Shown here: in pieces, positions 6,470-28,716 of the stretch | Position numbering within the stretch: the stretch's first letter is position 1 | Layout of the letters: every line of letters begins with the position of its first letter | NCBI GenBank assembly: GCA_944322695.1 | Contig: CALUPQ010000054.1 | Coordinates: forward strand, 1 to 32,875 | Reading direction: 5' to 3' | Source of the DNA: an uncultured Mailhella sp. | Lineage (GTDB): Bacteria > Desulfobacterota > Desulfovibrionia > Desulfovibrionales > Desulfovibrionaceae | Length of the DNA: 32,875 nucleotides | The notes under the pieces: generated by a model | What the model was told of the DNA's origin: nothing | What the model saw: only the letters and a program-made list of their open reading frames with translations | The model's database searches: none | Program-made: the position numbers and the translations under genes

Positions 6470-6479
6470 AATAAAATTC

Positions 6480-9452: not shown

Positions 9453-9464
9453 GTGCGAATCAGC

Positions 9465-10535
9465 CTATTTTATCAGGCCGGCCTCTTTCACGAGACGCGA
9501 GGTCTGCCAGGGAGAGTAATACTTCTCGCTCAGTTCGTAGAAGCGCTTTTCGAGCTTGTCGGTGGGAATACCGTTTTCCTTCATGATGTCGAGAACCGGC
9601 TTGTTCAGCGGCAGCGTGAGTTCGCGGGCCTTGGCGTAGTCCTCGTCGGAGAGCATGATGATGGTGCCGCCCATGTCCTTCATCCACTTGGCGGCGGTTT
9701 CATACTGGTCCTTTTCCCAGAAGGCGTCGAACATGCCGTCCACATAGTTGGCGGACATGTCGTTGATGACTTTCTGCAGGTCTTCGGGCAGGGCGTTGAA
9801 CACGTCCTCGTTCATGAACATGCCGAAATAGCAGCCGGACATGGTCAGCGGCACCATGTACTTCAGCATGTCGCCGAAGCGGCGGGACACGAGCATCTGA
9901 AAGTCGACGACGGCGCCGTCGAGCAGGCCCTGCTGCAGGGAGATGTACATGTCGGCAAGAGGCATCATGACGGGCGTGGCGCCGAGGGCCTTCAGCTTGT
10001 CGGCCGTGGCGGGCGTGATGGCGCCTATTTTCTTGCCCTTGAAGTCGTCGAGGCTTCTGATGGGTTCCTTGGTGCAGGGCACCATGCCGACGGGAAGCGC
10101 ATGGATGGCAAGAATCTTCAGGCCCTTGCATTCGTTGTATATTTCAGGAAATTCCGTTCCAAGTTCCTTGAGAATCTTCACAGGAGCGTCGATGGAGCGG
10201 GTCACGTCGGAGAGGTCTGCAAAGCGGCTGAAGAAGGGGAAGGCGCCGGGAGCCGTGGTCAGGGCCGTTTCGGTGATGTCGGCAAGACCGTTGCGCACGG
10301 AATCGGCGCATTCGCTCATCTTGCTCAGGGATTCGGCGAAGTAGGGCTCGACGACGATGCGTCCGCCGGAGCGTTTTTCGAGTTCGTCGAAGTACACCTT
10401 AACCGCACCGGTCCACCGGGTATGAACGGGAGCGATGGGAAGGTTGAGCGACAACGTGTAGTCCGCAGCGGAAGACATCTTCGGAGCGGCGAAGAGGGTT
10501 GCGGCCATCGCGAGAAGGGCGAGCTGTTTTTTCAT
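9465..10535 (-). CDS. TRAP transporter substrate-binding protein (DctP family) with altered ligand motif
   Basis: This 356-residue periplasmic protein has a signal peptide (MKKQLALLAMAATLFAAPKMSSA, cleavage near residue 23), followed by a DctP fold: SLNLPIAPVHTRWTGAVKVYFDELEKRSGGRI near the N-terminus, FAESL, the hinge segment DDFKGKKI at 163-170, LKALGATPVMMPLADMYISLQQGLLDGAV, and the C-terminal helices. In most DctP proteins the strand after the hinge reads KIR, and this Arg holds the ligand's carboxylate. Here the residue is Gly171 (KKIGAITPATADK). The ligand may therefore be bound differently or lack a carboxylate. ATG 10535 has AGGAGAACGAT upstream. It lies 30 bases after the FeS-oxidoreductase gene in the same operon. 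Confidence 0.92.
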   Translation of the reverse strand: MKKQLALLAMAATLFAAPKMSSAADYTLSLNLPIAPVHTRWTGAVKVYFDELEKRSGGRIVVEPYFAESLSKMSECADSVRNGLADITETALTTAPGAFPFFSRFADLSDVTRSIDAPVKILKELGTEFPEIYNECKGLKILAIHALPVGMVPCTKEPIRSLDDFKGKKIGAITPATADKLKALGATPVMMPLADMYISLQQGLLDGAVVDFQMLVSRRFGDMLKYMVPLTMSGCYFGMFMNEDVFNALPEDLQKVINDMSANYVDGMFDAFWEKDQYETAAKWMKDMGGTIIMLSDEDYAKARELTLPLNKPVLDIMKENGIPTDKLEKRFYELSEKYYSPWQTSRLVKEAGLIK

Positions 10536-10565
10536 ATCGTTCTCCTGGCTGGGGTTGATGGTTGG

Positions 10566-12245: not shown

Positions 12246-12258
12246 GATATTCTCCTTT

Positions 12259-13932
12259 CTAACGCAGATATTCCGATTTTACTTCCCAGTGCATCTTCGG
12301 CGAACCGTTTACCTTTTGAATGACGAGAATCTTGTCCGCCAGGTTTTTGTCGGGGTCGGGATAGTCGCCGCGTATCGCCATCGTGCAGAGAGAGGTTTCC
12401 CTCCGCTCCATGCTCGCCATGACCACGAGCCTGCAGAGCTTCAGGAGGTCGAGCCCCTCATGGATGCGCATGAGTTCATGGAGGTTTTCCGCCCGCAGGT
12501 CGTCGGTCAGCTTTTCAATGCGCTCGAGGCTGGCAAGAGCCTGCTTCATGCCCTTTTCGTTGCGCGTGTAGCCCATGTAGTAGTTCATCACCTGATGAAT
12601 GGCGGATTCGAAAAGCTGGTAGGTGGTGTCTCCGCCGTCGAGCATGGGCCTGAGCACGCGGGCCTTCTCCTCGTTCAGCTCTTCTTCGTTCAGCGCCAGA
12701 AATTCGACGGGGGCGGAGGCGATTTCCTCCGAGGCGTGCCTGGCGGCAAGGTAGCCGCCGCAGATGGCGCCGCTGAAGGACATGAAGCTGCACCCGACGT
12801 AGAGGCCGGGAAGCGTGCTCTGGAAATTCTTGTTTCTGAGCACTCTGCCTTCCATGCTGATGGAGCCGATTTCAATCTCCATGGGAGAGGTGGCGATGTC
12901 GAAACCCTTCTGCTCGCAGTATTCGAACCAGGTGGCCTTGTCGCCGGGCATGAGGTCGTTGTTGAGAATGTCGCGCGTCACGTCGTCGATATGGCGCATG
13001 TCCATGTAGAAGGGCGGGCCAGCCTGCCTGAGCTGTTCGCGCACGGTGCCCTGCATGAGCAGTCCTCTGGGGGCCTGTTCGGTCATGGCGTGGTAGTTGA
13101 GCATGTACCTTTCGCCCTTGGCGTTGAGGCCGTGTGCGCCGGAGCCGGTAATGCCGTTCATGCCCGGACAGCCGAAGCTCTTCGGGAAGAGCGTCGCTCC
13201 CTGAAGGGTGTCCAGACAGGCGAGCTCGGCGCCCATTTCATAGGGCAGGACGAAATGCGAACCCGTCACCGAAGGCGGGTACATGCAGTTGAAGGGATTG
13301 CCGGTGGAGTTCGTCCAGCCGCGTTCGGCCACCGGGCCGAGGCACAGAATGACCGCTTTGCCGAGCATGACGTGAAATTCGCCCGTAAGCACGTTGAAGC
13401 CGACCGCGCCGACGATTCTGCCCTGCTGCGAGATGAGCTTCGTCACCTGCACGTGATTGAGGCATTCCGCCCCCATTTCCAGAATGCGTCTGGACATCTT
13501 GGTCTTGAGCTTCTCGCCGTCCTTGATGAGAATCCACCAGCTGCCCGGCTGACCGAACCCCTGGCTTCTCATGTACGAACCGTCGGGGTTGCGCCGGAAT
13601 TCCACGCCGACGCTTTCCAGAAATTCAATCATGTGCGGGCAGACTTCGGCCCACTGGCGGATGGTGTCCGGCACGAGACCCCAGTTGGGCTTTTCATAGA
13701 AGTTGATGAAGTCCGCCGTGGTGTCGAAGGGAGCGTCCGTGTTCAGAACCGCCATGAAGTGGTCGTTGCCGCCGCCGATGCTGCCGCAGCTTTCGAATTT
13801 TCCCTTATCGACAAGCAGAACACGCCGTCCCGCTTCAAGAGCCGCGAGCGCGGCTCCGGTGCCGGCCGCCGCGGCGCCGAGGACGAGTACGTCCGTTTCA
13901 TGCACAGTAAAACCGTTGACGCTTTGTGGCAT
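12259..13932 (-). CDS. Cytoplasmic FAD flavoprotein of the FrdA/AprA-like superfamily
   Basis: The protein has 557 residues and no signal peptide. The N-terminus carries the FAD-binding motif VLVLGAAAAGTGAALAALEAG (16-36) and VDKGKFESCGSIGGGNDHF (41-59). The middle has GERGWTN-type and NPFNCMYPP segments (about 203-220) and NAKGERYM (270-277), and the FAD-closing region is LPGLYVGCSFMSFSGAICGGYLAARHA (374-400). The C-terminus has a helical domain and MERRETSLCTMAIRGDYPDPD, which resembles the end of APS reductase alpha and fumarate reductase flavoproteins. The family reduces or oxidises C=C bonds or adenylylsulfate; the substrate here is unknown. ATG 13932 has AAGGAGGG 5 bases upstream, while an in-frame extension to 14013 has none. 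It is the first gene of an operon with its FeS partner and a TRAP importer, directly behind a sigma-54 promoter. Confidence 0.88.
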   Translation of the reverse strand: MPQSVNGFTVHETDVLVLGAAAAGTGAALAALEAGRRVLLVDKGKFESCGSIGGGNDHFMAVLNTDAPFDTTADFINFYEKPNWGLVPDTIRQWAEVCPHMIEFLESVGVEFRRNPDGSYMRSQGFGQPGSWWILIKDGEKLKTKMSRRILEMGAECLNHVQVTKLISQQGRIVGAVGFNVLTGEFHVMLGKAVILCLGPVAERGWTNSTGNPFNCMYPPSVTGSHFVLPYEMGAELACLDTLQGATLFPKSFGCPGMNGITGSGAHGLNAKGERYMLNYHAMTEQAPRGLLMQGTVREQLRQAGPPFYMDMRHIDDVTRDILNNDLMPGDKATWFEYCEQKGFDIATSPMEIEIGSISMEGRVLRNKNFQSTLPGLYVGCSFMSFSGAICGGYLAARHASEEIASAPVEFLALNEEELNEEKARVLRPMLDGGDTTYQLFESAIHQVMNYYMGYTRNEKGMKQALASLERIEKLTDDLRAENLHELMRIHEGLDLLKLCRLVVMASMERRETSLCTMAIRGDYPDPDKNLADKILVIQKVNGSPKMHWEVKSEYLR

Positions 13933-13959
13933 AATCCCTCCTTGTTTTCCTTTTGAGAA

Positions 13960-13975
13960 AGCAAGAATCATACCA
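13960..13975 (-). promoter_or_regulatory. Sigma-54 (-24/-12) promoter of the flavoprotein-TRAP operon
   Basis: On the minus strand the site reads TGGTATGATTCTTGCT. Compared with the RpoN consensus TGGCACGNNNNTTGCW it keeps the invariant GG and GC with exact spacing, plus A5, G7, TTGC and W. The predicted transcript starts about 12 bases downstream, leaving a leader of roughly 17 bases that contains AAGGAGGG before ATG 13932. The divergent gene encodes a sigma-54 activator, which strongly supports the call. Confidence 0.82.
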
Positions 13976-14144
13976 AAAGAAACATTCAATGATTTCAATG
14001 GATAAAAAATCACCGTGCGCCGGATGATATTTTTTATTCATTTTTTTCACGAAATATTTACATACTATGCAAAGAGAGCTATGCCTTTTTTAAAGCCCGG
14101 TATCGCGGCAACGTCATGTCACCGGCAGCAAAACGAGATGCGCT
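13976..14144. promoter_or_regulatory. AT-rich divergent control region (candidate activator and IHF sites)
   Basis: The 170 bases between the sigma-54 promoter and the activator gene are AT-rich in a GC-rich neighbourhood, as expected for a bendable region between an enhancer and its promoter. A short direct repeat, TTCAATG-ATT-TCAATG, lies at about 13985-14000 and may be part of an activator site. I cannot identify the activator's own promoter with confidence. Confidence 0.4.
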
Positions 14145-17126
14145 ATGGACCACTACGACTTTTCCTCTCTCTGCGTAAACTCCGCTCTGACCCCCTTCGG
14201 AAAGCTTGCGCTGCTCTGCTTCTGTCTTCCAGAAGGCATAACGTCCGAGGATGCCTGCCGGATTCTGCGTATCGGAAGCGAAACTCTGAAGGAACTGCCC
14301 GACAGGTATTTCACGATGCAGGAAGGGGAGAGCATCCTGTGCCGGCGGGAAAACGTCGGCCCCATTCTGCGCAGCCTTGCCGTGATGGCGGACAACGGTC
14401 AGGAAAGCCTGAGCCTCTCGCTTGCGGCCGCCTTTTACCGGGACGATGCCGAAGCCGAGCAGCGGTTCTGCCGGGCGGCTGCGCGGGCCTTTTCCTCCTC
14501 GCTGCACCTTGCGGAAAAGAAGGTGCTGGCCGCCGTTCTCATCTTCGTGCTCACCAGGCGCCGTTTCGTTCTCAAGGATATCGCCGGGTGCGGAAGTTTT
14601 GTTTCCTTCATGACCGGCATTGCGCCGCGGCTGCTCTCCTACGGCGAGCTCGGGAGCTTCAGAACGCTTCTTTTCAAGGCGAAGGGCCTGGCTTTTGCCA
14701 TAGGCAACGACAAGGCCTATTCCTTTCTTCATTTCGCCATACAGTGCGTCCGCCTGCCGCTGGAATACGCGCAGGGCAAAACCTTCGACGGGCATTTCGT
14801 GGAAGAGAGCTTCTGGCAGCTCAGAAAGTTTCACGACTCCTCGCTGCACCTGATATCGTCATCGTTTCTCAGCCATTTCTACATCCTTACCGGAAAGTAC
14901 TTCAACGCCATCAACATCTGGAGACTGAACACGCTTCTGGATGCGGAAGGCATGGCGAAGGACGACGTCGTCATGGAAAACGCCTTCATCGGCGCCATGA
15001 TGACCTGCCAGTATGCGCTTGCCCTGGACATCGTTTCGTCTGCCGGAGCCCCGTCGAGCCTGCCCCTCGGGGAAATTGCCGGACTGTACTGCTCCGGCTG
15101 GAAGAAGGGCATACCTTCCGGGAAGCTGAAGGATTATTCTCCGAACGTGTTTCTCGCGCTTGCCCATGCTCTGTCGAAAAGGTATGACCTCGCCGCGGAA
15201 ACGCTCGGCCGCATCCGCATCAGGCCCGAATACTTCCTCAGATATCCGTTTCTGGCGGAAATGCTTTTCCAGCTGGAGCGGGAAGGCTTTCCCATTTTTT
15301 CGGACCGGGACTGGGAGGAGGAGTTCCGGCGGGCGAGAAACGCCTCGAATACCGTGCTCAGGGCCGTCTTTCTCAGAATATCGGCGGGCAGGATGCTCCT
15401 TTCCCTGCAGAGGGACGATGCGGCCATCGTTTCCCGCCTGCGTCACAGTCTGAACATTCTGCAGGGGAATCTTGCTCCGCTGGAGACGGCGCGGACCTGT
15501 CTGGTTCTGTCGAAGGTGCTGAGGATGACGGAGCGGCCGTCCGAAGCGGAGGCCCTTGAAAGGAAGGCCGCCGAAATCATCCGCGTCTTTTTTCCGCCCC
15601 TGTGGCCGGAAGACCTGGCGCTGCCTTCCGTTTCCGACGCTTCCGCCATGATGCCCCATTTCCCCTATTTTCTTCTCTTTCAGGCGCTGCTCGAGCTGAA
15701 CTGTCGGCAGCTCATCAAAAGCGCGCCTCTATTCTTCAACGGTATTCTTTCCGCCTTCATGACGGCTTTCGGCGCTCTTCAGGGGTATGTCATACAGGAA
15801 AAGGAGAAAAAAAGAGAATGCATCGCCGTTTCCGCAGGATGCCGGTATGACGGAAAGGCGGACACGGCTCTTCCCGAAGGAGAGTTCTGCCGCATCGTCG
15901 AGGGAAGGGACAATCCGGGGGGCCTGTCGCAGATTATGCTGAAAGTCGTCGACGACGAAAGAGAGTCGTTTGTCCTGTCCATCTTCGGGCATTTCGGCGG
16001 CCCCATACTTCAGATTCTGGACAGGAGCATGTGCGAGCTGCTGGCCAGTCAGATTCTTTCGGAAATCGGGAACTATCAGCGCAAGCAGCAGACCCATTCC
16101 CACAGCCTTCTCCGCTCTCCCGTCTATATGGCGCAGCCCGGAGACGGCGCCATCTTTTTCCGCAGCCCGGAAATGAAGGAGCTCATAAAGACCATAGACG
16201 CGCTCGCGCCGAGCGAGGCCTCCATTCTTCTCATCGGGGAAAGCGGCGTGGGAAAGGAGCGGCTGGCGCGGAGAATACACGACCAGAGCGGCCGGAGCGG
16301 GGAATTCATTCCCGTCAACCTCGCCTCCATCCCTTCGTCCCTGTTCGAAAGCGAATGCCTTGGATATGAGAAAGGCAGCTTCACAGGCGCGGTCGGCCCC
16401 AAGAAGGGGCTGTTCGAACTTGCCGACAACGGCACGCTTTTTCTCGACGAAATCGCGGACGTGCCCATGGACATACAGGTGAAGCTGCTGCGCATACTTC
16501 AGGAAAAGGCGTTCCGGCACGTGGGCGGCATCAAGCAGATTCATTCCCGTTTCCGTCTCGTGGCGGCGACGAACGCGAATCTTGAGAAGGCCGTGGCCGA
16601 GGGAAAGCTGAGGGCCGATTTGTATTTCAGGCTCAACACCATTTCTCTGTCCGTGCCGCCCCTGAGAAAGAGGCGTGGGGACATTCTTTTTCTTGCCGAC
16701 ATATTCCTCGGGCAGTTCTGCCAGCAGTACGGGAAAAAGAGGCGGGTGCTCACGGACAGGGAGACGGAAAGCCTGCTCGCCATGCCGTGGCCGGGAAACG
16801 TCCGGGAGCTCATGCACTTCATGGAGCGTCTGGTGCTGCTCGGGGATTTTCAGCGCGCCAAATCCACCGGGGCGGTGCATCCCGGGGATTTTCCGCCGGA
16901 AGGGAACCGACCCGAAGAACCTGCGGACCGGCCGGAGCTTTCCGGTTTCGCCCTGTCGCAGGAAGACGGCATCATTCCCCTGTCGGACTTGGAGGCGCGG
17001 TACTTTACCTTCGTTTACCGGCAGAAGAACGGCAAGGTGACGGGCAGAAACGGCATTGCGCAGGCTCTCGGCATTTCGGACCATACGGCCTTCAACTGGA
17101 TAAAGAAGCTGAACCTGGCACGGTAG
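14145..17126 (+). CDS. Sigma-54-dependent transcription activator with a large helical N-terminal domain
   Basis: The protein has 993 residues. Roughly 1-520 is a long alpha-helical, TPR-like region unlike the usual receiver or PAS input. About 530-640 resembles a GAF-type sensor (FNGILSAFMTAFGALQGYVIQE through SMCELLASQILSEIG). The AAA+ domain (about 675-895) has Walker A GESGVGKE (about 698-705), the sigma-54 contact loop written GSFTGA (about 744-749) rather than GAFTGA, Walker B LFLDEI (about 766-771), and the arginine-rich PPLRKRRGDI and WPGNVREL. A Fis-type helix-turn-helix (GIAQALGISDHTAFNWIKK) closes the protein. It is divergent from an operon with a good -24/-12 promoter and almost certainly activates it on sensing the substrate. 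The start has only a weak GAGA upstream; no better in-frame start is visible. Confidence 0.93.
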   Translation: MDHYDFSSLCVNSALTPFGKLALLCFCLPEGITSEDACRILRIGSETLKELPDRYFTMQEGESILCRRENVGPILRSLAVMADNGQESLSLSLAAAFYRDDAEAEQRFCRAAARAFSSSLHLAEKKVLAAVLIFVLTRRRFVLKDIAGCGSFVSFMTGIAPRLLSYGELGSFRTLLFKAKGLAFAIGNDKAYSFLHFAIQCVRLPLEYAQGKTFDGHFVEESFWQLRKFHDSSLHLISSSFLSHFYILTGKYFNAINIWRLNTLLDAEGMAKDDVVMENAFIGAMMTCQYALALDIVSSAGAPSSLPLGEIAGLYCSGWKKGIPSGKLKDYSPNVFLALAHALSKRYDLAAETLGRIRIRPEYFLRYPFLAEMLFQLEREGFPIFSDRDWEEEFRRARNASNTVLRAVFLRISAGRMLLSLQRDDAAIVSRLRHSLNILQGNLAPLETARTCLVLSKVLRMTERPSEAEALERKAAEIIRVFFPPLWPEDLALPSVSDASAMMPHFPYFLLFQALLELNCRQLIKSAPLFFNGILSAFMTAFGALQGYVIQEKEKKRECIAVSAGCRYDGKADTALPEGEFCRIVEGRDNPGGLSQIMLKVVDDERESFVLSIFGHFGGPILQILDRSMCELLASQILSEIGNYQRKQQTHSHSLLRSPVYMAQPGDGAIFFRSPEMKELIKTIDALAPSEASILLIGESGVGKERLARRIHDQSGRSGEFIPVNLASIPSSLFESECLGYEKGSFTGAVGPKKGLFELADNGTLFLDEIADVPMDIQVKLLRILQEKAFRHVGGIKQIHSRFRLVAATNANLEKAVAEGKLRADLYFRLNTISLSVPPLRKRRGDILFLADIFLGQFCQQYGKKRRVLTDRETESLLAMPWPGNVRELMHFMERLVLLGDFQRAKSTGAVHPGDFPPEGNRPEEPADRPELSGFALSQEDGIIPLSDLEARYFTFVYRQKNGKVTGRNGIAQALGISDHTAFNWIKKLNLAR

Positions 17127-17741: not shown

Positions 17742-20384
17742 TTACTGCACCTTTATCCAGCTCTTCTTGTCGTACAGCGGCCCCTGGATGTTGTACACTT
17801 CGTGCAGGACGAATTTGTTGTCCTGGTGGCGTGCTCTGTTGATGTCGCCGCTCACGTGGTGGCGCTTGCGGTTTTTGTCCGCCCACGGCGTACGGATGTC
17901 CTCTTTTTGGGCGGCGAGGGCGTTGTCGATGATGACGGGCACGTCCCAGTTGGCCATGAGGCTCGTGGTGTCCGTGCGCGCGGGGCCGCGCTCACCGGCT
18001 TCCTTCACCAGCAGCAGGCCGTGAAGGTGCACGGAAGGCAGTCTTCCCCAGAGCTTGAAGATTTCCGCGCTGTCGCCGCGGCCGTGGTCGGAGACGATGA
18101 TAATCTGCGTGTTGTCGTACACGCCCTGTTCCTTCATCCAGTCGAACCAGCGAATCAGGGACCTGAGGGCGAAGCCTTCGGCGCGCAGGTGATGCGGGGA
18201 GAGACCGTTGTTGGCGGGGTCGCGGGTGGCGTTCGTGCCGCTGTCGCTGGTGGGCAGGCCGTTGTCGTCCAGGCCCCACGGCACGTGGGTGAGCAGGTTG
18301 GACATGAAGATGAAGGCGTTTTCGTCCGTGTCCGAAATCTGTGAGGCTTCGGGCAGCACGTCCAGCGAGGCGAGGCATTTCAGCGAGTGGCGGATGGAGT
18401 GGCTGGCGATGGACACGGCGTTCATCCAGCGTCCGTTGCGGTAGATTTTTTTCTTGACGGACAGCGGCGCGATGTTGAACAGGCCCACGGCCGTGAGGAC
18501 TCTGTCCTGCTCGTTGACTTCGGGATAGACGAAGTTGTGCTTTTTCGCCCAGTACTTTCCGGCTCCGGGCCAGATGTCGTCGCCTGAAAGGAAGACGGCC
18601 TTCGGCTCTTCCTTCAGCATGGGAGCGACGAGGGCGGGGCGGAGCGCTTCGCCGTTGTGCACGGACAGCCTGAAGTTTTCGTCCTGAAGATGGCGGAAGA
18701 AGTTTCCGTAGGCGGCGTTTATCTTTTCTTCGAGGGAGCGGGTGGCGTCCTCGTTCAGCGCCACGGGATGGCATTCCTCGCCGCCGAGTATGCCGGGCTT
18801 GCCGAAGATGGTGGAGGTGCCGGCCGTCACGGTGTCCTCATACCAGGTGAAACCGTCGAGGCCGGTCTTCAGGTCGGGGTATTTTTCGAAAAGCTGCGCC
18901 ATGTTGCCGCCGGTGAACATGTCGAGCATCACGACGAGAACGTTCTTTCCGTTCCTGCTGAACGTGTAGAAGTCCTTCATGTACTGCGGCGGCGCGGAGT
19001 CCTCGTCCTGCGCGGGAGGAGTGTTCTGGGCGATGAAGTCCAGCGTTTCCCTGGCGGAAGTGTAGTGTATGCCCGTCATGACGACGAGTATGGTAAGGGT
19101 TGCATAGACCACGCTTTTGAGCACGGCCGTTTTGCGGAATTTCACGAGGGCGAGGAAGGCGGCGATGATGGCCGCAATCACGGCGATGTCGATATAGACG
19201 TTGTACCAGCGGTACAAAGGTTCCGGCCTCTGCAGAATAAGGGCGTCCAGCGCGCCGAAGTCGGGCGCGAGCAGGAAGGAGAAGCAGAGCGCCGCAAAGC
19301 CGAGCACCGTGAAGAGCGCGCCGAGGACCCAGCGCAGGGGGCCGCTCAGAACTCCCACGATGTAGAGAAGCAGGGTGAGCATGAACAGGATGCCGAGCCG
19401 CTCTCCGGTGAACTCCACCACCGGGGTGGAAAACACGGCCGGGTCGGAGCTGTACACCGCAAACGGGCAATAGACCATGAGCAGCATGGCGATGAGCGTG
19501 GTCATGGGCAGGTACAGTTCGGCCAGCACGGCCTTCTGCGAAGAGGGCAGGAAGGCGTTCCATGCGGCGGATGCCTTATGCCAGTTCACAAGGCGGAAGG
19601 GAAAGACGCCGCCCAGGCGGACGAGCACGGAGGAAACGGCCGAGCCTGCGCGCGTGAGAAGCCGGTTTCTGGAGGCGGCGAGCCTGCGCATGGCGCCTGT
19701 CCAGCCCGGACGCTTCATCCAGTCCTTCTCCACGATGTTCTTGCCAAGGGAATAGACGTTGTTCAGCGTCCAGTAAAAGGTGAGGGCGGCGGGAGAATTG
19801 TACAGCAGCACGAGAAAAAGCGCCGCCATGCCGTAGAGCTGCACCTTGTCCCGTCGGGAAAGGCCGTGGGTGTAGAAGAAGGCCGAGACCAGGTTGATGA
19901 CGGTCATCAGGATGGGCAGAACGTTGACGGTCACGTTCCCGATGCTGAAGAGCTCGTCCGGAGCGCCGAGGTCGCGGATGGGGCCGAAAGTCACGCCGTG
20001 CAGCACTTCCATGTGGGACAGAAGGTGATAGGCGGCGAAGAAGAAGGGCACCTGCAGAAGCACGCCCACGCTGGCCCGCAGGGTCATGAACTGGCTGTAG
20101 CCGTGCTGGCGGTACAGCGTGGAGAGCATGGCGAAGCGCTCCTGCCCCTTGAAGACCGAGCGAATCATGTTTTCCATGGGAGCCATGCGGGCCTTCAGGG
20201 CGCGTTCCTCTTCCTGCCAGCCTTCCACCTTGTTGTAGATGGGCAGAATGACGGTATTGACGGCGAGGCTCATGAGAATGAGGGCGAGGCCGAAGGAATG
20301 CGTGGTGTAGAAGCCCCAGTTCAGAATGGTCTGCATGAAGAATTCAAGCGGGGCTATGCAGATGAGGTACAGAAATTCAAGCAT
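17742..20384 (-). CDS. Fusion of a YidC/Oxa1-like domain with an LtaS/EptA-like sulfatase-fold transferase
   Basis: The protein has 880 residues. Residues 1-230 follow the YidC core: GFYTTHSFGLALILMSLAVNTVILPIYNKVEG, the cytoplasmic loop with LSTLYRQHGYSQFMTLRASVGVLLQVPFFFAAYHLL, then the helices containing NSPAALTFYWTLNNVYSLGKN. The groove arginine needed by YidC insertases (Arg366 in E. coli) aligns with Asn43, so insertase activity is doubtful. Five or so further TM helices follow (about 285-450). From about 478 to the end is an alkaline-phosphatase-superfamily domain: LVVMLDMF (metal Asp, about 486), GTSTIFGKPGILGG (nucleophile Thr, about 525) and SDHGRGDS (metal Asp-His, about 765). Such domains in LtaS and EptA transfer phospho-alcohol groups on the outer face of the membrane. 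ATG 20384 lies 3 bases after the previous stop. Confidence 0.88.
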   Translation of the reverse strand: MLEFLYLICIAPLEFFMQTILNWGFYTTHSFGLALILMSLAVNTVILPIYNKVEGWQEEERALKARMAPMENMIRSVFKGQERFAMLSTLYRQHGYSQFMTLRASVGVLLQVPFFFAAYHLLSHMEVLHGVTFGPIRDLGAPDELFSIGNVTVNVLPILMTVINLVSAFFYTHGLSRRDKVQLYGMAALFLVLLYNSPAALTFYWTLNNVYSLGKNIVEKDWMKRPGWTGAMRRLAASRNRLLTRAGSAVSSVLVRLGGVFPFRLVNWHKASAAWNAFLPSSQKAVLAELYLPMTTLIAMLLMVYCPFAVYSSDPAVFSTPVVEFTGERLGILFMLTLLLYIVGVLSGPLRWVLGALFTVLGFAALCFSFLLAPDFGALDALILQRPEPLYRWYNVYIDIAVIAAIIAAFLALVKFRKTAVLKSVVYATLTILVVMTGIHYTSARETLDFIAQNTPPAQDEDSAPPQYMKDFYTFSRNGKNVLVVMLDMFTGGNMAQLFEKYPDLKTGLDGFTWYEDTVTAGTSTIFGKPGILGGEECHPVALNEDATRSLEEKINAAYGNFFRHLQDENFRLSVHNGEALRPALVAPMLKEEPKAVFLSGDDIWPGAGKYWAKKHNFVYPEVNEQDRVLTAVGLFNIAPLSVKKKIYRNGRWMNAVSIASHSIRHSLKCLASLDVLPEASQISDTDENAFIFMSNLLTHVPWGLDDNGLPTSDSGTNATRDPANNGLSPHHLRAEGFALRSLIRWFDWMKEQGVYDNTQIIIVSDHGRGDSAEIFKLWGRLPSVHLHGLLLVKEAGERGPARTDTTSLMANWDVPVIIDNALAAQKEDIRTPWADKNRKRHHVSGDINRARHQDNKFVLHEVYNIQGPLYDKKSWIKVQ

Positions 20385-20387
20385 GGC

Positions 20388-21671
20388 TTATTCCCCGGCA
20401 GAGGCTATGGTCAGGATGGCGTCGGTCACGGGTTTCGCGGCGTGGCCGAAGTTTGCGACGTTTTCGCGGCGGAGCGTCAGGATGCGGTCGGCAAAGTCGC
20501 CGTCGGAGGTCAGTTCTCCGATGATGCCGGGAAGGCGGTCGAGCTCGGCCGCGCTCACCTGCCGCCCCAGCTTCTTCACGGTTTCCGCCTCCCACGCGGG
20601 ATGGGAAAGGCTGAAGCCGTCGAAGCCGCGCATGTCGGATTCATATTGAAGCGTGATGACGGGCCGCAGGAAGATGAAGGCGAAGTCGAAGATGACGCCG
20701 GAGAAGTCCGAGACCATGATTTCGGCACGGCTAAGAGAAGCGAATCCGTCGGGGTTGCAATCCCATTCGATGTTCGGATACGCGGAGAGTTCCTCCTGCA
20801 GGCGCTGCATGAGCGCCTTTTCCGAAATGAAGCTCTGCGGATGCGGGCGCAGGATGACCTTGTAGCCCGCTTCGGCGAGATGGCGGGGCACGGCGGAGCC
20901 GTGGCGGGTGAGCATGCCGTTTCTGCCCCAGGAAGGCGCGACGAGCACGCAGCCTTTTTCCGCCTGAATGTTTTCCCTCTCCTTCCGGGCGACGAGCAAG
21001 TCCATGTACGGGCAGCCGACGACGGGCAGCTCTTTCGGCGTGGTGCCGCGCGAGGCTTCCAGCGCGCGCAGGGACTTGACCTGATAGGGGCCGCTGCAGA
21101 GCACGGCGTCGTAGTAGTCGAAGGCGAAGAGCTTGTAGGAATGGATGTCGGTGAGGGAGTGCACCACGTGGACGTACTTCTTGACGCCTTTGGAGCGGCG
21201 GATTTGCAGAACGTCTATGCCGGGCGTGGTGAGCACGAGGGCGTCCGCTTCAAGAAAGTTCAGCGTGGTGTAGGCCGTGTTGCCGGTGCCGATGTAGCGG
21301 CAGGTGATGCACTCGGGAAGGGTTGCGCTGAAGCAGGGGTCGTTTTCCGTGGAGGTGAGGTATTCCACGCTTTCGCCGCGGCGTCCCAGTTCTTCGAGCA
21401 GGGGACGGAACGTGCCCCAGTAGTTGGCGGATTCGCCGTAGATGGCGATGTGCTTGCGCTCCAGCAGCCTGCTTTTGCCCGTGGCCTTGAAAAGAAGCGT
21501 GCGGAACAGGGTGGGAATCTTGCGCACGACGAAGTACGCCGTGGACAGCAGGCCGATGAACACGGAAAGAAGCATGCTGCCCGTGCCCGGGTCGAGATAG
21601 GCATAGGCGGGGGTGGGGCTTGCCAGAAGAAGCAGACCTGCCGCAAGGGCAAGGTTGAGAACGTATTTCAT
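20388..21671 (-). CDS. CDP-glycerol glycerophosphotransferase family protein (TagF/TagB-like)
   Basis: This 427-residue protein has an N-terminal signal or anchor (MKYVLNLALAAGLLLLASP), then the motif YLDPGTGSMLLS with a second hydrophobic helix (about 26-50), which is often seen in surface-polysaccharide proteins. The rest matches the CDP-glycerol:poly(glycerophosphate) transferase family: IAIYGESANYWGTFRPLLEEL, HVVHSLTD, VLCSGPYQ, VLVAPSWGRNGML, VILRPHPQS and EIMVSDFSGVIFDFAFI. The last three form the conserved nucleotide and phosphate-handling region of TagF. It should transfer a phospho-alcohol unit from a CDP-activated donor to a glycan or lipid at the cytoplasmic face. The donor could come from the TagD-like enzyme encoded at the operon start. 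ATG 21671 has GAGAGG upstream; the previous gene ends 9 bases earlier. Confidence 0.88.
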   Translation of the reverse strand: MKYVLNLALAAGLLLLASPTPAYAYLDPGTGSMLLSVFIGLLSTAYFVVRKIPTLFRTLLFKATGKSRLLERKHIAIYGESANYWGTFRPLLEELGRRGESVEYLTSTENDPCFSATLPECITCRYIGTGNTAYTTLNFLEADALVLTTPGIDVLQIRRSKGVKKYVHVVHSLTDIHSYKLFAFDYYDAVLCSGPYQVKSLRALEASRGTTPKELPVVGCPYMDLLVARKERENIQAEKGCVLVAPSWGRNGMLTRHGSAVPRHLAEAGYKVILRPHPQSFISEKALMQRLQEELSAYPNIEWDCNPDGFASLSRAEIMVSDFSGVIFDFAFIFLRPVITLQYESDMRGFDGFSLSHPAWEAETVKKLGRQVSAAELDRLPGIIGELTSDGDFADRILTLRRENVANFGHAAKPVTDAILTIASAGE

Positions 21672-21680
21672 TCGAACCTC

Positions 21681-23300
21681 TCAGCGGGAGACGATTTTCT
21701 TGTAGAGAACGTGGAGCACGCCCGCTCCGGCGGTGACGGCCAGCACCAGGGTGTTCATGGCGGCGGCGGAGCCGAGGTATCCCGAATCGTACATGTTGAC
21801 GATGGAGATGGCGGCGACGGTGTATTTGCCCCCGCACAGGAAGGCCATGGAGGAGACCGTGGTCATGGCGTTGATGAAAAGATAGAAGAACACGTCGGAA
21901 AGGGGCAGGCGGCACTGCGGCACGACCACGCGCAGGGCGGTTTTCCATGCGGGAACGCCCATGCTTCGCCCGGCCTTTTCATAGTTGTCGTCCACTTTGG
22001 CAAGAGCGGACACGCACGTCAGGTGCGCGACCGTGGAGAAGTGCACGATGGTGTTGATGACGAGGATGGCGAAGCTGTCGTACAGAAAGGAAAAGGGGCC
22101 GCTGTTGAAGGCGAAGATGTAGGCAAGGCCGAGCACGAGGCCCGGCAGGCTCAGCGGCAGAAGCAGCAGAAGGCGGTACAGTCTTTTCAGCGCTGCCGGA
22201 ATCTGCCCGCGTTCCACGAGGTAGGCTCCGGTGTAGAGAAGAGCGGTGCCGAACACGGCCACGCACAGGGCCATGGCGACCGAAGTGCCGAGCGAGGAGA
22301 GGCTGTAGCCCGCCTCCTCGAAGAAGTAGTTGTCCGGCACGAGCGTCATGTCGTAGGGCCAGAAGGCCGTGAACGAGGCGAACACCACCACGGCGATGGA
22401 GGCCATGGGCAGAAGCAGTATGCCCCAGCAGACGACGCCGAAAAGAGGGGAGCTTTTCTGCTCCACGTCGGAAACCGGTCTTGCGTTCTGCACGCGCAGT
22501 CTTGCGTGGGCGCGGCGCGCCCATGCGTCAAGGGTGAGGGTAAGAACGGTGGGAGCCATGAGCACGAGGCTGATGAGGGCGCCCATGGTGAAGTTCTGCT
22601 GACCGATGACCTGCGAGAAGATTTCCGTGGACAGCACGGAGTAGTCGCCGCCGAGCACTTTGGGAACACCGAAGTCCGTTATGGAGAGAGTGAACACCAC
22701 GAAGGACGCGTTGATGATGCCGTAGCGGGCGTTCGGCAGCGTGACGGTCGTGAACTTGCGCCACGGCCCGGCGCCAAGGCAGGCGGAGGCCATGTAGAGA
22801 CGGCTGTCCACGCTGCGCAGGGAGGTGAGGAGCAGCAGCGTGGCATGCGGCAGGGTGAAGACCGCGTTGCCGAGCACTATGCCGAGCGGGCCGTACAGCT
22901 CCTGCCCGCAGAGCAGAAAGCGCGCGATGCCCTGCGCTCCGAAAAGATAGACGAAGCCGATGGCCGGAAGCAGCGACGGCACGAAGAGCGGAAGCAGCAC
23001 CAGAAGACCGCAGATTCTGCGCCCGGAAAAGCGGGTATGCGTCAGCCCGTAGGCCAGAAGGAACGCCGCGGGAACCACGAGCGCGGTGACCGTGGTGCTG
23101 ATGGTCAGGGAGTGGACGAAGGAAGAGAACAGGCCCGGAGAGTGGAGGTACTCCAGAAAATTGGCCGCCCCGACGAAGTTGCCTTCCGCATCGGAAACGC
23201 TCCGCACAAGGAGCATGTACAGCGGATAGATGAGCGCCGGAAAAAGGAGGCACAAGAGAAGAATCTGGAGCAGCACGCCCCGCGGGGAAGGTCTGCTCAT
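21681..23300 (-). CDS. ABC importer double permease (PhnU-PhnV-like, 2-aminoethylphosphonate/iron type)
   Basis: This 539-residue inner-membrane protein has two binding-protein-dependent permease halves fused in one chain, about twelve TM helices. The two cytoplasmic coupling loops are visible as ASACLGAGPWRKFTTVTLPNARYGI in the first half and AGRSMGVPAWKTALRVVVPQC in the second. This fused layout is usual in the iron(III) and 2-aminoethylphosphonate importer family. I start at ATG 23300 (GGAGA 8 bases upstream), which leaves 2 bases after the ATPase stop. The longer frame to 23489 overlaps that gene and has no support. It works with the ATPase and binding protein encoded upstream. Confidence 0.9.
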   Translation of the reverse strand: MSRPSPRGVLLQILLLCLLFPALIYPLYMLLVRSVSDAEGNFVGAANFLEYLHSPGLFSSFVHSLTISTTVTALVVPAAFLLAYGLTHTRFSGRRICGLLVLLPLFVPSLLPAIGFVYLFGAQGIARFLLCGQELYGPLGIVLGNAVFTLPHATLLLLTSLRSVDSRLYMASACLGAGPWRKFTTVTLPNARYGIINASFVVFTLSITDFGVPKVLGGDYSVLSTEIFSQVIGQQNFTMGALISLVLMAPTVLTLTLDAWARRAHARLRVQNARPVSDVEQKSSPLFGVVCWGILLLPMASIAVVVFASFTAFWPYDMTLVPDNYFFEEAGYSLSSLGTSVAMALCVAVFGTALLYTGAYLVERGQIPAALKRLYRLLLLLPLSLPGLVLGLAYIFAFNSGPFSFLYDSFAILVINTIVHFSTVAHLTCVSALAKVDDNYEKAGRSMGVPAWKTALRVVVPQCRLPLSDVFFYLFINAMTTVSSMAFLCGGKYTVAAISIVNMYDSGYLGSAAAMNTLVLAVTAGAGVLHVLYKKIVSR

Positions 23301-23302
23301 GG

Positions 23303-24298
23303 TCAGTCTCCGTTCCAGCTCCGCCACTTGTTCTGAGGCAGGTGCACGGCCACGATGCCGCCTTTTTTGAACTTTGCGGCCGCGGAGGCGGGCATTTCCG
23401 CCCACAGCCTCGTGGAATAGTCCTGCAGAAGCAGGTCCATGCGGACGACCGCTCCCAGGTAGCAGACGTCCATAATCTGCGCGGTCCACGTATGGGGCTG
23501 ACCGAGCACCAGCTCCGTGGCTTCCGTGACCACGATGTCTTCTCCGCGTATGCCGTATTCCCTGCCCTCCATGAACGAGAAGGACAGGAAGTTCATGCGG
23601 CCGATGAAGGACGCCACGAAACGGTCGGCCGGGGCTTCATAGATTTCGGCGGGAGTTCCCGTCTGGGCTATGCGGCCGTCCTTCATGATGACGATGCGGT
23701 CGGCCATGCTCATGGCTTCCTGCTGGTCGTGCGTCACCATGATGGTGGTGATGCCTATCTGGCGCTGAAGACGGCGAAGCTCTTCCGCGAGCTGCTGCCG
23801 GATGGAGGCGTCGAGGGCGGAAAAGGGCTCGTCGAGCAGCAGAATGTGCGGTTCGGGGGCAAGGGCGCGGGCGAGGGCCACGCGCTGCTGCTGTCCGCCG
23901 GAAAGCTGGTTGGGGTAGCGACCGCAAAAGTCGGCAAGGCCCACGAGTTCCAGCATTTCGCGCACCCTGTCGGCGCGCTTGCGGGCATCCCATGAGGCAA
24001 GGCCGTAGGCCACGTTCTTTTCCACCGTAAGGTTGGGAAAGAGCGCGTAGCCCTGAAAGACCACGCCGAAGCGGCGCTTTTCCGGGGGCAGAGCCGTGAT
24101 GTCTCTGCCGGAGAGCGTGATTTTTCCCTCGGAAGGATACGCGATGCCCGAGACGGCGTTCAAAAGCGTGGTCTTGCCGCAGCCGGAAGGCCCTAGAATG
24201 GCGATAAGCTCGCCTTCATCCACGGAAAACGACACATTGCGGAGCACCCGCGACGCGCCGTAGCACATGCCGAGCTGCTCTATCTCCAGAAAGGCCAT
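23303..24298 (-). CDS. ABC importer ATP-binding protein (PhnT/FbpC/PotA-like)
   Basis: This 331-residue ATPase has Walker A GPSGCGKTT (about residues 38-46), Q-loop VVFQGYALFPNLTV, signature LSGGQQQR, Walker B ILLLDEPFSALD and the switch histidine in MVTHDQQEA. A C-terminal TOBE-like part (about 235-331) contains RGEDIVV and VVRMDLLLQD, as in CysA/PotA/FbpC-type importers. The start at 24298 (MAFLEIEQLGMCYG) has GAGGGA upstream and leaves 10 bases after the binding-protein gene. It powers the fused permease encoded next. Confidence 0.93.
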   Translation of the reverse strand: MAFLEIEQLGMCYGASRVLRNVSFSVDEGELIAILGPSGCGKTTLLNAVSGIAYPSEGKITLSGRDITALPPEKRRFGVVFQGYALFPNLTVEKNVAYGLASWDARKRADRVREMLELVGLADFCGRYPNQLSGGQQQRVALARALAPEPHILLLDEPFSALDASIRQQLAEELRRLQRQIGITTIMVTHDQQEAMSMADRIVIMKDGRIAQTGTPAEIYEAPADRFVASFIGRMNFLSFSFMEGREYGIRGEDIVVTEATELVLGQPHTWTAQIMDVCYLGAVVRMDLLLQDYSTRLWAEMPASAAAKFKKGGIVAVHLPQNKWRSWNGD

Positions 24299-24308
24299 GT
24301 TGCGTCCC

Positions 24309-25301
24309 TCAGCGGGCGTAGCGGTTCCGCCACTCTTTGAGCAGACGGTCGCGGTTTTCGGCCGCCCATTGCAGGTCGTTGTCAATCATGAGCTCTTCGG
24401 CCTTCTTGGACTCGGGCGTGGTGAATTCCGGTCGTCCGGCCAGTCCGGAGAAGTCGGCCGCAATCTTTCCCACGGCTTCGGAGCAGGTCCAGTCCATGAG
24501 CTTGCGCGCGGCGTCCGCCTTATCCGTGGTTTTGATGATGGCCGTGGCTTCGGCTTCCCAGCCGAGGCCGTCTTCCATGAACACGATGTCGATGGGGGCG
24601 CGGCGCTTGAGCAGAGGTTTCATGAAGGCCGGGGAGCCTATGCCGATGGCGATTTCGCCCTGCGCGGCCATGGTGCCGGGCTTGGAGCCGGAATGGGAAA
24701 GCAGCTTGACGTTGGCCATGAGGGCGTCGGCATACGCCCAGCCCTTTTCTTCGCCCATGACCTGTATCCACGCGGCAAGATTCATGTAGCCGGTACCGGA
24801 AGAGGCCGGGTCGGGCATGGCGATGAGGCCTTTGTAGCGGGGGTCGGCAAGGTCGGCCCAGGATTTGGGGTGGGGCAGACCGAGCTTTTCCATCTCGGGC
24901 TTGTTGATGGCCATGCCGCTGGTCCATGCGTTCATGGCAACCCAGACGGGCTCCGCCGCATTGTCGCGCATTCTGGGGGAAAGTTTGTCATACCCTTCGG
25001 GCTTATAGGGAAGAAGCAGGCCTTCCTTCTGAAGCAGGAGCAGGGAGCTTGCGGCAAGACCGAAGACGGCATCGGCCTTGGGCGCGTCCTTCTCGGCGAG
25101 AAGCCGCGCCGTGATGACGCCCGTGGAGTCGCGCACCCAGGTGATGGATATGTCGGGATAGGCGGATTCGAAGCCCTTCTTGTACAGATTGAGATAGTTG
25201 GGTTCCACCGCGGTATAGACGAGAAGTTCCGTTTTGGCAGAGGCGGTATCGACGTACAGAAGCAGAGAGAGGAGCATGGCTCCGAAAACGCGCAGTTTCA
25301 T
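24309..25301 (-). CDS. ABC importer periplasmic binding protein (PhnS/FbpA-like)
   Basis: This 330-residue protein has a signal peptide (MKLRVFGAMLLSLLLYVDTASA, cut near residue 22, no lipobox). The mature part starts KTELLVYTAVEPNYLNLYKKGFESAYPDI, characteristic of the bacterial extracellular solute-binding family that includes iron(III), 2-aminoethylphosphonate and polyamine binders. Further family segments are WVRDSTGVITARLLAEKDAPKADAVFGLA, LADPRYKGLIAMPDPASSGTGY and GEIAIGIG. The FbpA tyrosine pair that binds iron is not obvious, so a phosphonate or phosphate ester is more likely than iron; this is inference. It starts 2 bases after the cytidylyltransferase stop, so the two products are likely linked. 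Confidence 0.88.
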   Translation of the reverse strand: MKLRVFGAMLLSLLLYVDTASAKTELLVYTAVEPNYLNLYKKGFESAYPDISITWVRDSTGVITARLLAEKDAPKADAVFGLAASSLLLLQKEGLLLPYKPEGYDKLSPRMRDNAAEPVWVAMNAWTSGMAINKPEMEKLGLPHPKSWADLADPRYKGLIAMPDPASSGTGYMNLAAWIQVMGEEKGWAYADALMANVKLLSHSGSKPGTMAAQGEIAIGIGSPAFMKPLLKRRAPIDIVFMEDGLGWEAEATAIIKTTDKADAARKLMDWTCSEAVGKIAADFSGLAGRPEFTTPESKKAEELMIDNDLQWAAENRDRLLKEWRNRYAR

Positions 25302-25303
25302 GA

Positions 25304-25771
25304 CTAATCCAGCCTGAAGTCGTTTTTGATGGTTTCAAACAGGGCCCGGGCCACACGGTCGGAGCCTTCCTCGGCATCCTTGCGCAGGTTGATGGAAATG
25401 AGGCTGTCGAGCACGCGTCTGCGCATGTCCGAGCTGCTCACGCCTTCGGTGCGCGGGAAGATGACCAGCTTTTCCGCGGGAATGAGATTTGAGTTGTCGC
25501 TGCCGTGAACCAGCTTGTCGATGTTGTGCTTCACGAGGAAGGCATCGTCGATGAGCCACGGGGAGGGAATGACTTCGTCCACATAGCGGATGCTTTCGAG
25601 TATTTCCTTGCGCTCCTCGAAGCTGAGCTCGGGCGTGTAGCCCTTTTTGTTCTTCACTTCCTCATCTGTGGTGAGGGCAACGATGACGGTGCCGAGCTGA
25701 CTTGCCTTTTTCAGCAGCCGCACGTGGCCGTGATGGATGAGCGTGGCGGACATATCGACAAGAATGCGCAT
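25304..25771 (-). CDS. Cytidylyltransferase of the TagD/phosphoethanolamine type
   Basis: This 155-residue soluble enzyme belongs to the HIGH-motif nucleotidyltransferases. Motifs: MRILVDMSATLIHHGHVRLL, in which His13-x-Gly15-His16 is the HxGH site; FEERKEILESIRYVDEVIP (51-69); and RTEGVSSSDMRRR (107-119), the counterpart of the RTEGIST motif in TagD. The family joins CTP to glycerol-3-phosphate, phosphoethanolamine or similar compounds, releasing pyrophosphate. The close fit to TagD favours CDP-glycerol. The N-terminus MSATLIHHGH replaces the usual FDLLHxGH, so the acceptor may differ. The start at 25771 has AAGGAGG 6 bases upstream. It heads a six-gene operon with an importer, a TagF-like transferase and the YidC-sulfatase fusion. 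Confidence 0.85.
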   Translation of the reverse strand: MRILVDMSATLIHHGHVRLLKKASQLGTVIVALTTDEEVKNKKGYTPELSFEERKEILESIRYVDEVIPSPWLIDDAFLVKHNIDKLVHGSDNSNLIPAEKLVIFPRTEGVSSSDMRRRVLDSLISINLRKDAEEGSDRVARALFETIKNDFRLD

Positions 25772-27264: not shown

Positions 27265-28608
27265 TTAGAACTGGTAGGCGAGGCTGAGCATGGCGCTCCA
27301 GCCGTTTTCGTCCCAATCCTTGTTGTTGCCAGCAAAGGTAGCATGGTCGTCCTTGTCGAAGTCGGCAATGACGTAGGCAAGTTCAAGGTTGGCGGTGAGG
27401 TTCTTGTAAATCTTGTAGGTGCTGGCGAGGTCGAATTCGACAGCGGTATCAGAGTAGGTCATGTACTGGAAGGGAGCTTCGGAAGAAGCAAAGGCAGTGT
27501 CATGGTTGGTGCCCTTGAACAGAGTCACGGTGAACTTGTGGCTCAGGTCCTCAAGGAAGGACACGTCTTCGATACCAGCCTGCACGCCCCAGGTGCCGCA
27601 GATGTTGTGCTGAGCGGCGAGGCCGTCATACAGACCGTACTGGCCGTTGTAGAGACCGTAGGTGGGATGGAAACGACCGGCATAAGTGGGAATCCAGTCC
27701 TGACGGCCGTACTGAGCGTCGCGGTCGTCACCGGAGCCGTACCAGGCACCCAGGATGGGAGTGCCATAGGCGGTCTTGTAGGAAGCCTTGGCCTGCACAT
27801 ACCAGCCGGCACGGTCGTTCATTTCGTATTCGCTGTCATAGCTGGCCACACCATAAGCACCGGACAGCTTCAGCACGAAGGGGTCGAAGTAGGTCATGGT
27901 GGAGGTCACACCAGCCCAGAAAGCATTACCGTCGGCAGTAGTAGCAGCAAGGGAACCATCGGTGGAGCCGGGAACCGGGGCACCTTCATCCAGAGCAGCG
28001 TACATGACATAGGGGGTCACGGCAAAGCCGTCAAACTTCATGGGAGCGGACACAGCGAAGAAGTCGGACTTGTCGGACAGAGAGGTGTCGTAGTATTCGC
28101 CGTCATCAACATAGTTGCCGCGCATCCAGAAGGCGTTGAGGCTCATCCAGTCGGTCACGGGAGCAGCTACAGAGATACCGTCACGGCTGGCCCAGGAATG
28201 GAAGATGGCGCTCTTACCGAAGGCGTCAGCGGGAAGGGCGATGAGCTGCTTACCCATACGAACCTTGACGTCCGTGTTGGGGACAATCCAGTCGATGTAG
28301 GCCTGACGGACGGCAACGCGGGAGTCACGACCGGTGGTATCGTAACCCCAGCTGTATTCAGAGTTATCTTCGGGAGAGATACCGGCCTGCAGCTGCAGGT
28401 AGCCGGAGAGGTTTTCATTGGCGGTGAAGGTCATGCCGATACGGACGCGCTGACCGGCAACATCGAAGTTGGAACCGGTGGCCATGCGTTCGCCGATACC
28501 GAAGGTGAACATGTATTCGCCGTCCATCTTGACGTCAACAGCAGAAGCAGGGGCAGACGCGGCAAACACCATGCCGGCAGCCAGCAGAAGCGTAGTAAGC
28601 TTTTTCAT
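27265..28608 (-). CDS. Outer-membrane porin, Desulfovibrio homotrimeric type
   Basis: This 447-residue protein has a signal peptide MKKLTTLLLAAGMVFAASAPASA and a mature part beginning VDVKMDGEYMFTFGIG. The rest is a porin barrel of alternating amphipathic strands rich in Tyr, Trp, Gly and Asp, ending LSLAYQF with the terminal phenylalanine needed for outer-membrane assembly. The N-terminus (MKKLTTLLLAAGMVFA) and overall pattern match the abundant homotrimeric porins of Desulfovibrio, which form general diffusion channels. ATG 28608 is chosen because AAGGA lies 9 bases upstream. ATG 28617 is too close to that site, and the extension to 28671 has none. It is a single-gene unit with its own terminator. 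Codon use appears uniform, as in a highly expressed gene. Confidence 0.93.
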   Translation of the reverse strand: MKKLTTLLLAAGMVFAASAPASAVDVKMDGEYMFTFGIGERMATGSNFDVAGQRVRIGMTFTANENLSGYLQLQAGISPEDNSEYSWGYDTTGRDSRVAVRQAYIDWIVPNTDVKVRMGKQLIALPADAFGKSAIFHSWASRDGISVAAPVTDWMSLNAFWMRGNYVDDGEYYDTSLSDKSDFFAVSAPMKFDGFAVTPYVMYAALDEGAPVPGSTDGSLAATTADGNAFWAGVTSTMTYFDPFVLKLSGAYGVASYDSEYEMNDRAGWYVQAKASYKTAYGTPILGAWYGSGDDRDAQYGRQDWIPTYAGRFHPTYGLYNGQYGLYDGLAAQHNICGTWGVQAGIEDVSFLEDLSHKFTVTLFKGTNHDTAFASSEAPFQYMTYSDTAVEFDLASTYKIYKNLTANLELAYVIADFDKDDHATFAGNNKDWDENGWSAMLSLAYQF

Positions 28609-28647
28609 GGTAGTCATTCCTTTGAAAAATTTGGTTGATTGACACCG

Positions 28648-28670
28648 TATGGAAAATCCCTCTTTTTCCA
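28648..28670 (-). promoter_or_regulatory. Hairpin in the porin 5' leader
   Basis: ATGGAAAA and TTTTTCCAT around TCCCTC form a stem about 40-60 bases upstream of the porin start. It may lie within the transcript leader and affect message stability. Confidence 0.35.
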
Positions 28671-28716
28671 TGAGCGGAGCTTAGAATTAACCCGTAAAAT
28701 AATCAATAAAAAAATG

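Follow-up and report, generated by a model that had tools for sequence, protein, structure and literature searches.

Activation of 2-aminoethylphosphonate (AEP) with cytidine triphosphate (CTP) for a likely decoration of the cell surface is known from the Pnt pathway, in which, according to the portion of the study available, cytidine monophosphate (CMP)-AEP is a precedent for likely surface tailoring, PntC is a cytidylyltransferase of the PF12804 type, PepM also occurs fused to a PF01467 cytidylyltransferase, and LicD-like transferases are mentioned (PMC6697681). For choline, the accessible part of a 2023 survey gives no evidence that Lic-1 (LicABCD) and PptA-type enzymes coexist in one species, and presents PptA as a phosphocholine transferase of the alkaline phosphatase superfamily with phosphatidylcholine as a possible donor (PMC10434233). 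Here, an operon of an uncultured Mailhella sp. is described (contig C54, 32,875 bases, the whole of which is called the window) which links a cytidylyltransferase (CyT), an ATP-binding cassette (ABC) importer, a TagF-like phosphotransferase and a fusion of a YidC-like domain with an LtaS/EptA-type transferase. The parts belong to known families; the arrangement, the swap of activation modules and the YidC-linked transferase are, as far as searched, the new element, and no description of them was found in a literature search of partly accessible sources, in agreement with a preliminary description of the window which was aware of no earlier account of the combination.

The six genes lie on the minus strand from 25771 to 17742, separated by 2, 10, 2, 9 and 3 bases, and encode in this order CyT, a periplasmic binding protein, an ABC ATPase, a two-in-one permease, the TagF-like protein and the fusion of 880 amino acids (Table 1), so that the run of tightly spaced genes of one direction from which the preliminary description started is confirmed. 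Its proposal that scavenging, CTP activation and two surface-type transferases form one linked system is likewise supported by the genomic context. We lean towards the reading that a scavenged phosphonate is activated with CTP and put on the surface by the TagF-like protein and the fusion, in the following called the pair. As activation modules are swapped beside the pair and relatives of the importer sit with phnX-phnW, surface decoration with CMP-activated AEP would be the likeliest form of such a system.

Table 1. Operon features and domains of the fusion protein, in window coordinates.
Feature	Position	Strand	Basis or remark
CyT, cytidylyltransferase of the TagD/ECT/Fom1 superfamily, 155 amino acids	25304..25771	-	PF01467, 55.3 bits
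Periplasmic binding protein, PhnS2 type	24309..25301	-	TIGR03261, 403.9 over cut-off 392.75
ABC ATPase, PhnT2-like	23303..24298	-	TIGR03265, 401.9, under cut-off 457.7
Two-in-one ABC permease, PhnU2-like, 539 amino acids	21681..23300	-	TIGR03262, 558.5, under cut-off 593.25
TagF-like phosphotransferase, 427 amino acids	20388..21671	-	over PF04464 cut-off; GT-B domain after hydrophobic N-terminus
YidC + LtaS/EptA-type fusion, 880 amino acids	17742..20384	-	domain and fold matches
YidC-like domain, fusion residues 1-222	19719..20384	-	groove basic residue replaced by N43, codon 20256-20258
Helical membrane part and alkaline-phosphatase-fold transferase part, residues 280-880	17745..19547	-	D488, T525, D766, H767

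The pair behaves as a unit across genomes. Of 199 family genomes, 14 carry the fusion (42 matched, of which 28 did so on the YidC part alone with 39.9-47 bits and were set aside as canonical YidC), and 13 of them also have a TagF-like gene (E <= 1e-30), which none of the other 185 possesses; the single fusion genome lacking it, G049, carries its fusion on a 4.5-kb contig which ends 21 bases after the gene. In 30 loci from 28 genomes (the window, L034-L048, L070-L082 and L083), from which the fusion fragment of G728 is excluded and among which L073, identical to the sequence L002, is counted once, the TagF-like gene adjoins the fusion 26 times, and in the remaining four (L041, L042, L044, L077) no more than 0.3 kb separates the fusion from a contig end. 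Two of these four come from G111: the fusion genes of L041 and L042 agree at 83% and their flanks at 92%, and the two may represent a single locus in different strains; counted once, they leave 26 of 29. Similarly, the CyT subtype (E <= 1e-20) occurs in nine of the 199 family genomes, each of which also carries the fusion, and is absent from the 185 without it (Fisher 1.8e-12, a value that ignores shared ancestry), although CyT and the fusion sit on separate contigs in G099, G111 and G086. That the functions should co-occur in relatives, as the preliminary description expected, was therefore not contradicted by the family genomes. Beyond the family, a survey of the class (348 genomes, matches below 80 bits set aside as canonical YidC) returned fusions in this one family only among the matches listed, and a sample of the phylum (395 genomes) returned three, namely those of the window's genome, of G126 from the same family and of G600 from another, whose TagF-like protein (L083) is 36% identical to that of the window. 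The 41 genomes of the order of G600 added the fragment in G728, on a 3.5-kb contig on which no other marker of the system was found. In L041 an EptA-type phosphoethanolamine transferase gene (6790-8517) lies directly downstream of the fusion; it is gone from the similar contig L042, where the flank resumes right after the fusion, which indicates insertion or loss.

What changes beside the pair is the activation module. A nucleotidyltransferase shares the stretch with the pair in 23 of the 30 loci, and the other seven (L038, L039, L041, L042, L044, L072, L077) reach a contig end, with the importer permease adjoining the fusion in L044. CyT is accompanied by a PhnSTU2-type importer in four loci (the window, L036, where it is on the opposite strand, L037 and L073), by a GlpT/PgtP-family carrier in one (L034), and stands alone in two (L040, L043). 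A LicC-type nucleotidyltransferase is joined to a choline/ethanolamine kinase in 12 (L035, L045, L046, L071, L074-L076, L078-L082), in L071 together with a sodium:solute symporter, occurs without kinase in two (L047, L048), one of them with a BCCT-family transporter, and is joined to a CobD-like decarboxylase in one (L070); beyond the module types scanned for domains, LicC and LicA labels rest on BLAST to L045. In L083, from 0.6 kb beyond the fusion gene, a convergent group encodes a CyT-PepM fusion, Ppd and an iron alcohol dehydrogenase; the CyT-PepM protein carries PF01467 and PF13714, as in the fused form of the Pnt pathway, and has a 54% identical counterpart in G111. The latter genome contains CyT and the TagF-like gene (L103), one or two fusion genes and, elsewhere (L105), a phosphonate set of Ppd (488.6, cut-off 312.5), AEP aminotransferase (367.1, cut-off 360.8) and PepM (397, cut-off 319.55). 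As a variant of its own, L070 (13030-16163, G276) shows, just upstream of the pair, the LicC-CobD-like pyridoxal-phosphate-type fusion beside a protein of the octopine dehydrogenase family; the CobD-like part is nearest in the PDB to 6oux, a threonine-phosphate-decarboxylase-like enzyme, and the whole may serve as a module for phosphoethanolamine (or aminopropanol phosphate) with an opine-related feature.

The LicC-type modules with choline kinase, and the one with the BCCT transporter, resemble Lic-1, except that the position expected of LicD is taken by the TagF-like protein and an outside-type transferase; the scanned neighbours showed no LicD, with no LicD model run over the genomes. The pair also joins LicA/LicC-type choline activation to transferases of the alkaline phosphatase superfamily, which stand apart in the available part of the 2023 survey (PMC10434233).

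The TagF-like protein itself scores above the Pfam cut-off for PF04464, is of GT-B fold with an invariant histidine and matches TagF, TarL and Cps3D in the PDB by profile; H168, H171, R275, H277, S321, D322 and D329 are present in 59 of 59 aligned sequences, that of the window included. Unlike TagF/TarL polymerases, it has 427 residues as opposed to 729 in the solved TagF chain, carries two hydrophobic stretches around a YLDPGTGS motif at its N-terminus and lies beside choline or phosphonate activators. In L082 (786-3731, G312) a single open frame of 981 amino acids encodes, one after the other, a LicC-type, a choline-kinase-type and a TagF-like part; activation and transfer may be fused here, or the genes may have been joined by a base error. 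Such a frame, the TagF/TarL-like fold with its invariant His/Asp/Ser set, and the action of LicD on lipid-linked glycan in the cytoplasm, as given in the accessible part of the Lic-1 literature (PMC10434233), would suit a different order of steps with the same substrates and purpose, in which the TagF-like protein is the final, LicD-like cytoplasmic transferase on a lipid-linked glycan, with the fusion adding a phospholipid-derived phospho-group or aiding export. We regard this as unlikely, though deserving attention, since the two genes are rarely apart and the transfer of an unrelated phospho-group would not need this link. EptA/LtaS-type enzymes take lipid donors, which also speaks against a LicD-like order of events.

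Among the importer components, the binding protein is above the PhnS2 cut-off, and the ATPase and the permease are near relatives of PhnT2 and PhnU2 and not called members; of the earlier label PhnSTUV the aminophosphonate type is retained, while the subtype has to be replaced by PhnSTU2 with a two-in-one permease. From the profile match and from relatives that precede phnX-phnW, AEP is the predicted ligand. The gene order also is that of PhnSTU2/AepSTU-type importers, but the importer of the window is linked to CyT and not to PhnX/PhnW. The binding protein occurs in 22 of the 199 family genomes (E <= 1e-50), six with the fusion and 16 without. In seven of ten fusion-less importer loci (L117-L122, L125) PhnX follows the permease and PhnW is found further on, and the four such enzymes tested all exceed their cut-offs (three PhnX with 331-333 against 220, one PhnW with 569 against 400.8). 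This company might suggest that the importer serves phosphorus or nitrogen nutrition only and stands beside the pair incidentally. Such an explanation is very improbable in view of the order CyT-binding protein-ATPase-permease, which is kept in six genomes (the window's, G324, G155, G008, G099, G086), of the separate branch of the importer, as in a tree of 17 binding proteins the six CyT-linked and the seven PhnX-linked ones are split across one branch with support 100/99, and of PhnX, for which none of 13 fusion genomes but both controls score above the cut-off. Two proteins on the CyT side of this tree, from G011 and G019, have no CyT beside them.

With respect to the origin of the phosphonate, PepM is over cut-off in two of 28 genomes (G111, G600) and has no match in the window's own genome G000, which is 76.75% complete, so that, in contrast to the Pnt pathway, the phosphonate of the window is likely imported. 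PhnW (TIGR02326) is over cut-off in none of the 28 genomes; aminotransferases of G141 and G111 exceed the broader TIGR03301. In G141 an AEP aminotransferase (445 over 360.8) adjoins a GlpT-family carrier (L106), to which the GlpT-family carrier located before CyT in G070 (L034) is 47% identical, and G070, a genome 97% complete, holds CyT and this carrier with none of PepM, PhnX and PhnW over cut-off. Since AepP, a GlpT relative, is an AEP permease as shown by mutants in the part of the source available (PMC8316502), the exchange of the ABC importer for a GlpT-type carrier would represent two routes to one phosphonate.

CyT belongs to the PF01467 cytidylyltransferases (55.3 against a cut-off of 21), unlike PntC, with HxGH (residues 13-16) and RTEGVSSS (107-114) corresponding to the HxGH and RTEGxSxx motifs of this family. 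Its PDB matches are ECT (3elb), TagD (1coz), CCT (4zcp) and a Fom1-type enzyme (5x3d), and the TagD equivalog TIGR01518 is failed by far (75.7 against 165.4), so that of the earlier term TagD-like the superfamily stands and a TagD identity is not supported; CMP-AEP is its predicted product. In G086 a cluster upstream of the CyT-importer operon (L104, 4561-6868) contains a second, different CyT and an aminotransferase which is BhcA/AEP-aminotransferase-like and under the cut-offs. The preliminary description had spoken of a teichoic-acid-like route; taken as such, glycerol phosphate, imported or home-made, would be converted to CDP-glycerol and polymerized by the TagF-like protein and the LtaS-like domain. 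The match of CyT to TagD, the TagF, TarL and Cps3D matches of its partner, the carrier before CyT in G070, which may alternatively be an AepP-like phosphonate carrier, and some automatic names reading glycerol-3-phosphate cytidylyltransferase agree with this route; it was nevertheless rejected as first choice on the TIGR01518 score, on the neighbours of the pair elsewhere, which are activation genes of choline, ethanolamine or phosphonate type, and on the importer relatives with phnX-phnW, and is now held to be quite improbable. Cells, moreover, normally make their own glycerol-3-phosphate.

The fusion exceeds the cut-off for PF02096 (YidC) and shows the YidC fold over 222 residues, but stays under the YidC equivalog TIGR03592 (70.7 against 84.3). 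At the groove position 62 aligned sequences have Asn in 59, Ser in one, Val in one and a gap in one, that is, no Lys or Arg in the 61 with a residue there. The C-terminal part is under the sulfatase cut-off PF00884 (16.9 against 25), a domain which some homologues, P0029 among them, carry in precomputed annotation, and is assigned to the LtaS/EptA type by fold and by conserved residues: 6xlp (PbgA) aligns over residues 280-880 (368 residues, root mean square deviation 12.9), D488, D766 and H767 are present in 62 of 62 aligned sequences and T525 in 61, with Ser in one, and the Asp-His of LtaS has its aligned counterpart in D766-H767. These residues are likely the metal/nucleophile set, with Thr525 probably the nucleophile. 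As LtaS is one of several comparably good fold matches, the former term YidC-LtaS fusion is right about the fusion and too narrow about LtaS. With EptA, PptA, LtaS and PbgA the protein shares a helical membrane part and an alkaline phosphatase fold with the conserved Asp, Asp-His and Thr; it differs by the added N-terminal YidC domain and the conserved link to the TagF-like and CMP-activation genes. A chance join in the assembly was rejected on account of full-length homologues of 880-1010 amino acids on many contigs, and so was the idea of the fusion as the cell's own YidC, a canonical copy with Lys at the groove position being encoded on contig C4. NCBI names several fusions of 879-975 amino acids (P0003, P0005, P0007) 'YidC/Oxa1 family membrane protein insertase', by which the system is hidden.

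Given fold and Pfam match, the YidC domain might be a true insertase or chaperone which folds the fused transferase or its partner, and some YidC proteins tolerate loss of the groove Arg. The lack of a groove Lys or Arg throughout the fusions and the canonical, Lys-bearing YidC in the same genome make this explanation improbable.

Tandem fusion genes point to a constant-plus-variable design. In G070 two fusions (L034, 9650-15122) lie 13 bases apart and share 93-97% DNA identity over residues 1-200 (third positions 82-92%) and 38-57% past residue 250 (third positions 25-48%); the two tandem fusions of G294 (L072, 1-4775) likewise agree at 81-96% in residues 1-200 (66-90% at third positions) and at 31-49% beyond, with 76% in the final block. 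This pattern suggests recent copying or conversion of the YidC segment from one gene to the other, with the transferase half exchanged as a cassette, the transferase halves appearing as divergent as distant paralogues.

From gene order, domains, conserved residues, co-occurrence and module swap the following route is proposed for the favoured phosphonate decoration, its chemical steps, substrate, lipid intermediate and acceptor all being predictions. The PhnSTU2-type importer would take up AEP made by others, CyT would convert it with CTP to CMP-AEP, and the membrane-anchored TagF-like enzyme would shift the phosphonate head group from CMP to a membrane lipid, an intermediate which by itself is possible but rather doubtful. 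The YidC domain, devoid of the basic residue of the insertase groove, may then let the loaded lipid reach the outer leaflet, for which there is a precedent in E. coli YidC, which after purification scrambles lipids in vitro according to the accessible part of the source (PMC10491306), and the fused LtaS/EptA-type domain would deliver the head group to a glycan, lipid A or a protein as external acceptor. In general terms, and more tentatively, a third logic of surface head groups can be envisaged in which the TagF-like protein loads a lipid, the YidC fold is the dedicated and constant gate, the LtaS-type domain transfers and is recombined as a cassette, and the head-group modules (AEP, phosphocholine, phosphoethanolamine, hydroxyethylphosphonate) are interchangeable.

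Several observations weigh against the phosphonate decoration favoured here. Absences in the source genome carry little weight on account of its incompleteness, importers are present in 16 fusion-less genomes, and three of the ten fusion-less importer loci (L123, L124, L127) lack PhnX and PhnW. As the CyT-linked binding proteins branch apart, and as the nearest PDB entries of the binding protein are 4r72, 8x1a and the pyridoxal phosphate binder 6wce, with PhnS (4r6y) at E 7e-6, its specificity may have shifted, for instance towards a phosphate ester or a different phosphonate. CyT scores 75.6 bits against the ethanolamine-phosphate enzyme, 71.8 against the glycerol-phosphate and just 49.6 against the phosphonate enzyme. 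Furthermore, G008 has two PepM-like matches under cut-off, G141 has, besides its AEP aminotransferase, two PhnX-like matches under cut-off (148 and 138 bits), by which AEP degradation is possible there, and the alcohol dehydrogenase of G600 is nearest to PsrA (301 bits, under the cut-off of 423.7), which suggests hydroxyethylphosphonate as the product of that pathway.

Phosphonate import has mostly been read as feeding. In one bacterial family the same importer family now appears in two settings, in one next to degradation genes, in the other next to CTP activation and a surface-type transferase pair; if the proposed route holds, phosphonates would be scavenged for decoration, cells would wear a phosphonate made by others, and uptake genes in metagenomes would have to be read differently. 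The YidC fold would equally acquire a job other than that of an insertase, a likely role which is directly testable, and for gut sulfate reducers a surface decorated with choline or phosphonate would matter to how the host perceives them.

The source genome is a bin of 2.27 Mb in 206 contigs, the nearest named relatives of which are bins of Mailhella sp. recovered from the gut of animals (goat colon, water deer omasum). Upstream of the operon (27265-28671, minus strand) a protein of 468 amino acids with a signal-like N-terminus is encoded, which is barrel-like and by eye porin-like and has no Pfam match at E 0.001. Facing the 3' end of the operon is the gene of a sigma-54-dependent activator of 993 amino acids (14145-17126, plus strand), the first ~670 residues of which are without clear Pfam family. 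As far as seen unrelated to the operon, the genes at 72-14013 encode a TonB-dependent receptor, a PepSY_TM protein, a histidine kinase, a TRAP transporter (DctP, fused DctQM) and two flavoproteins.

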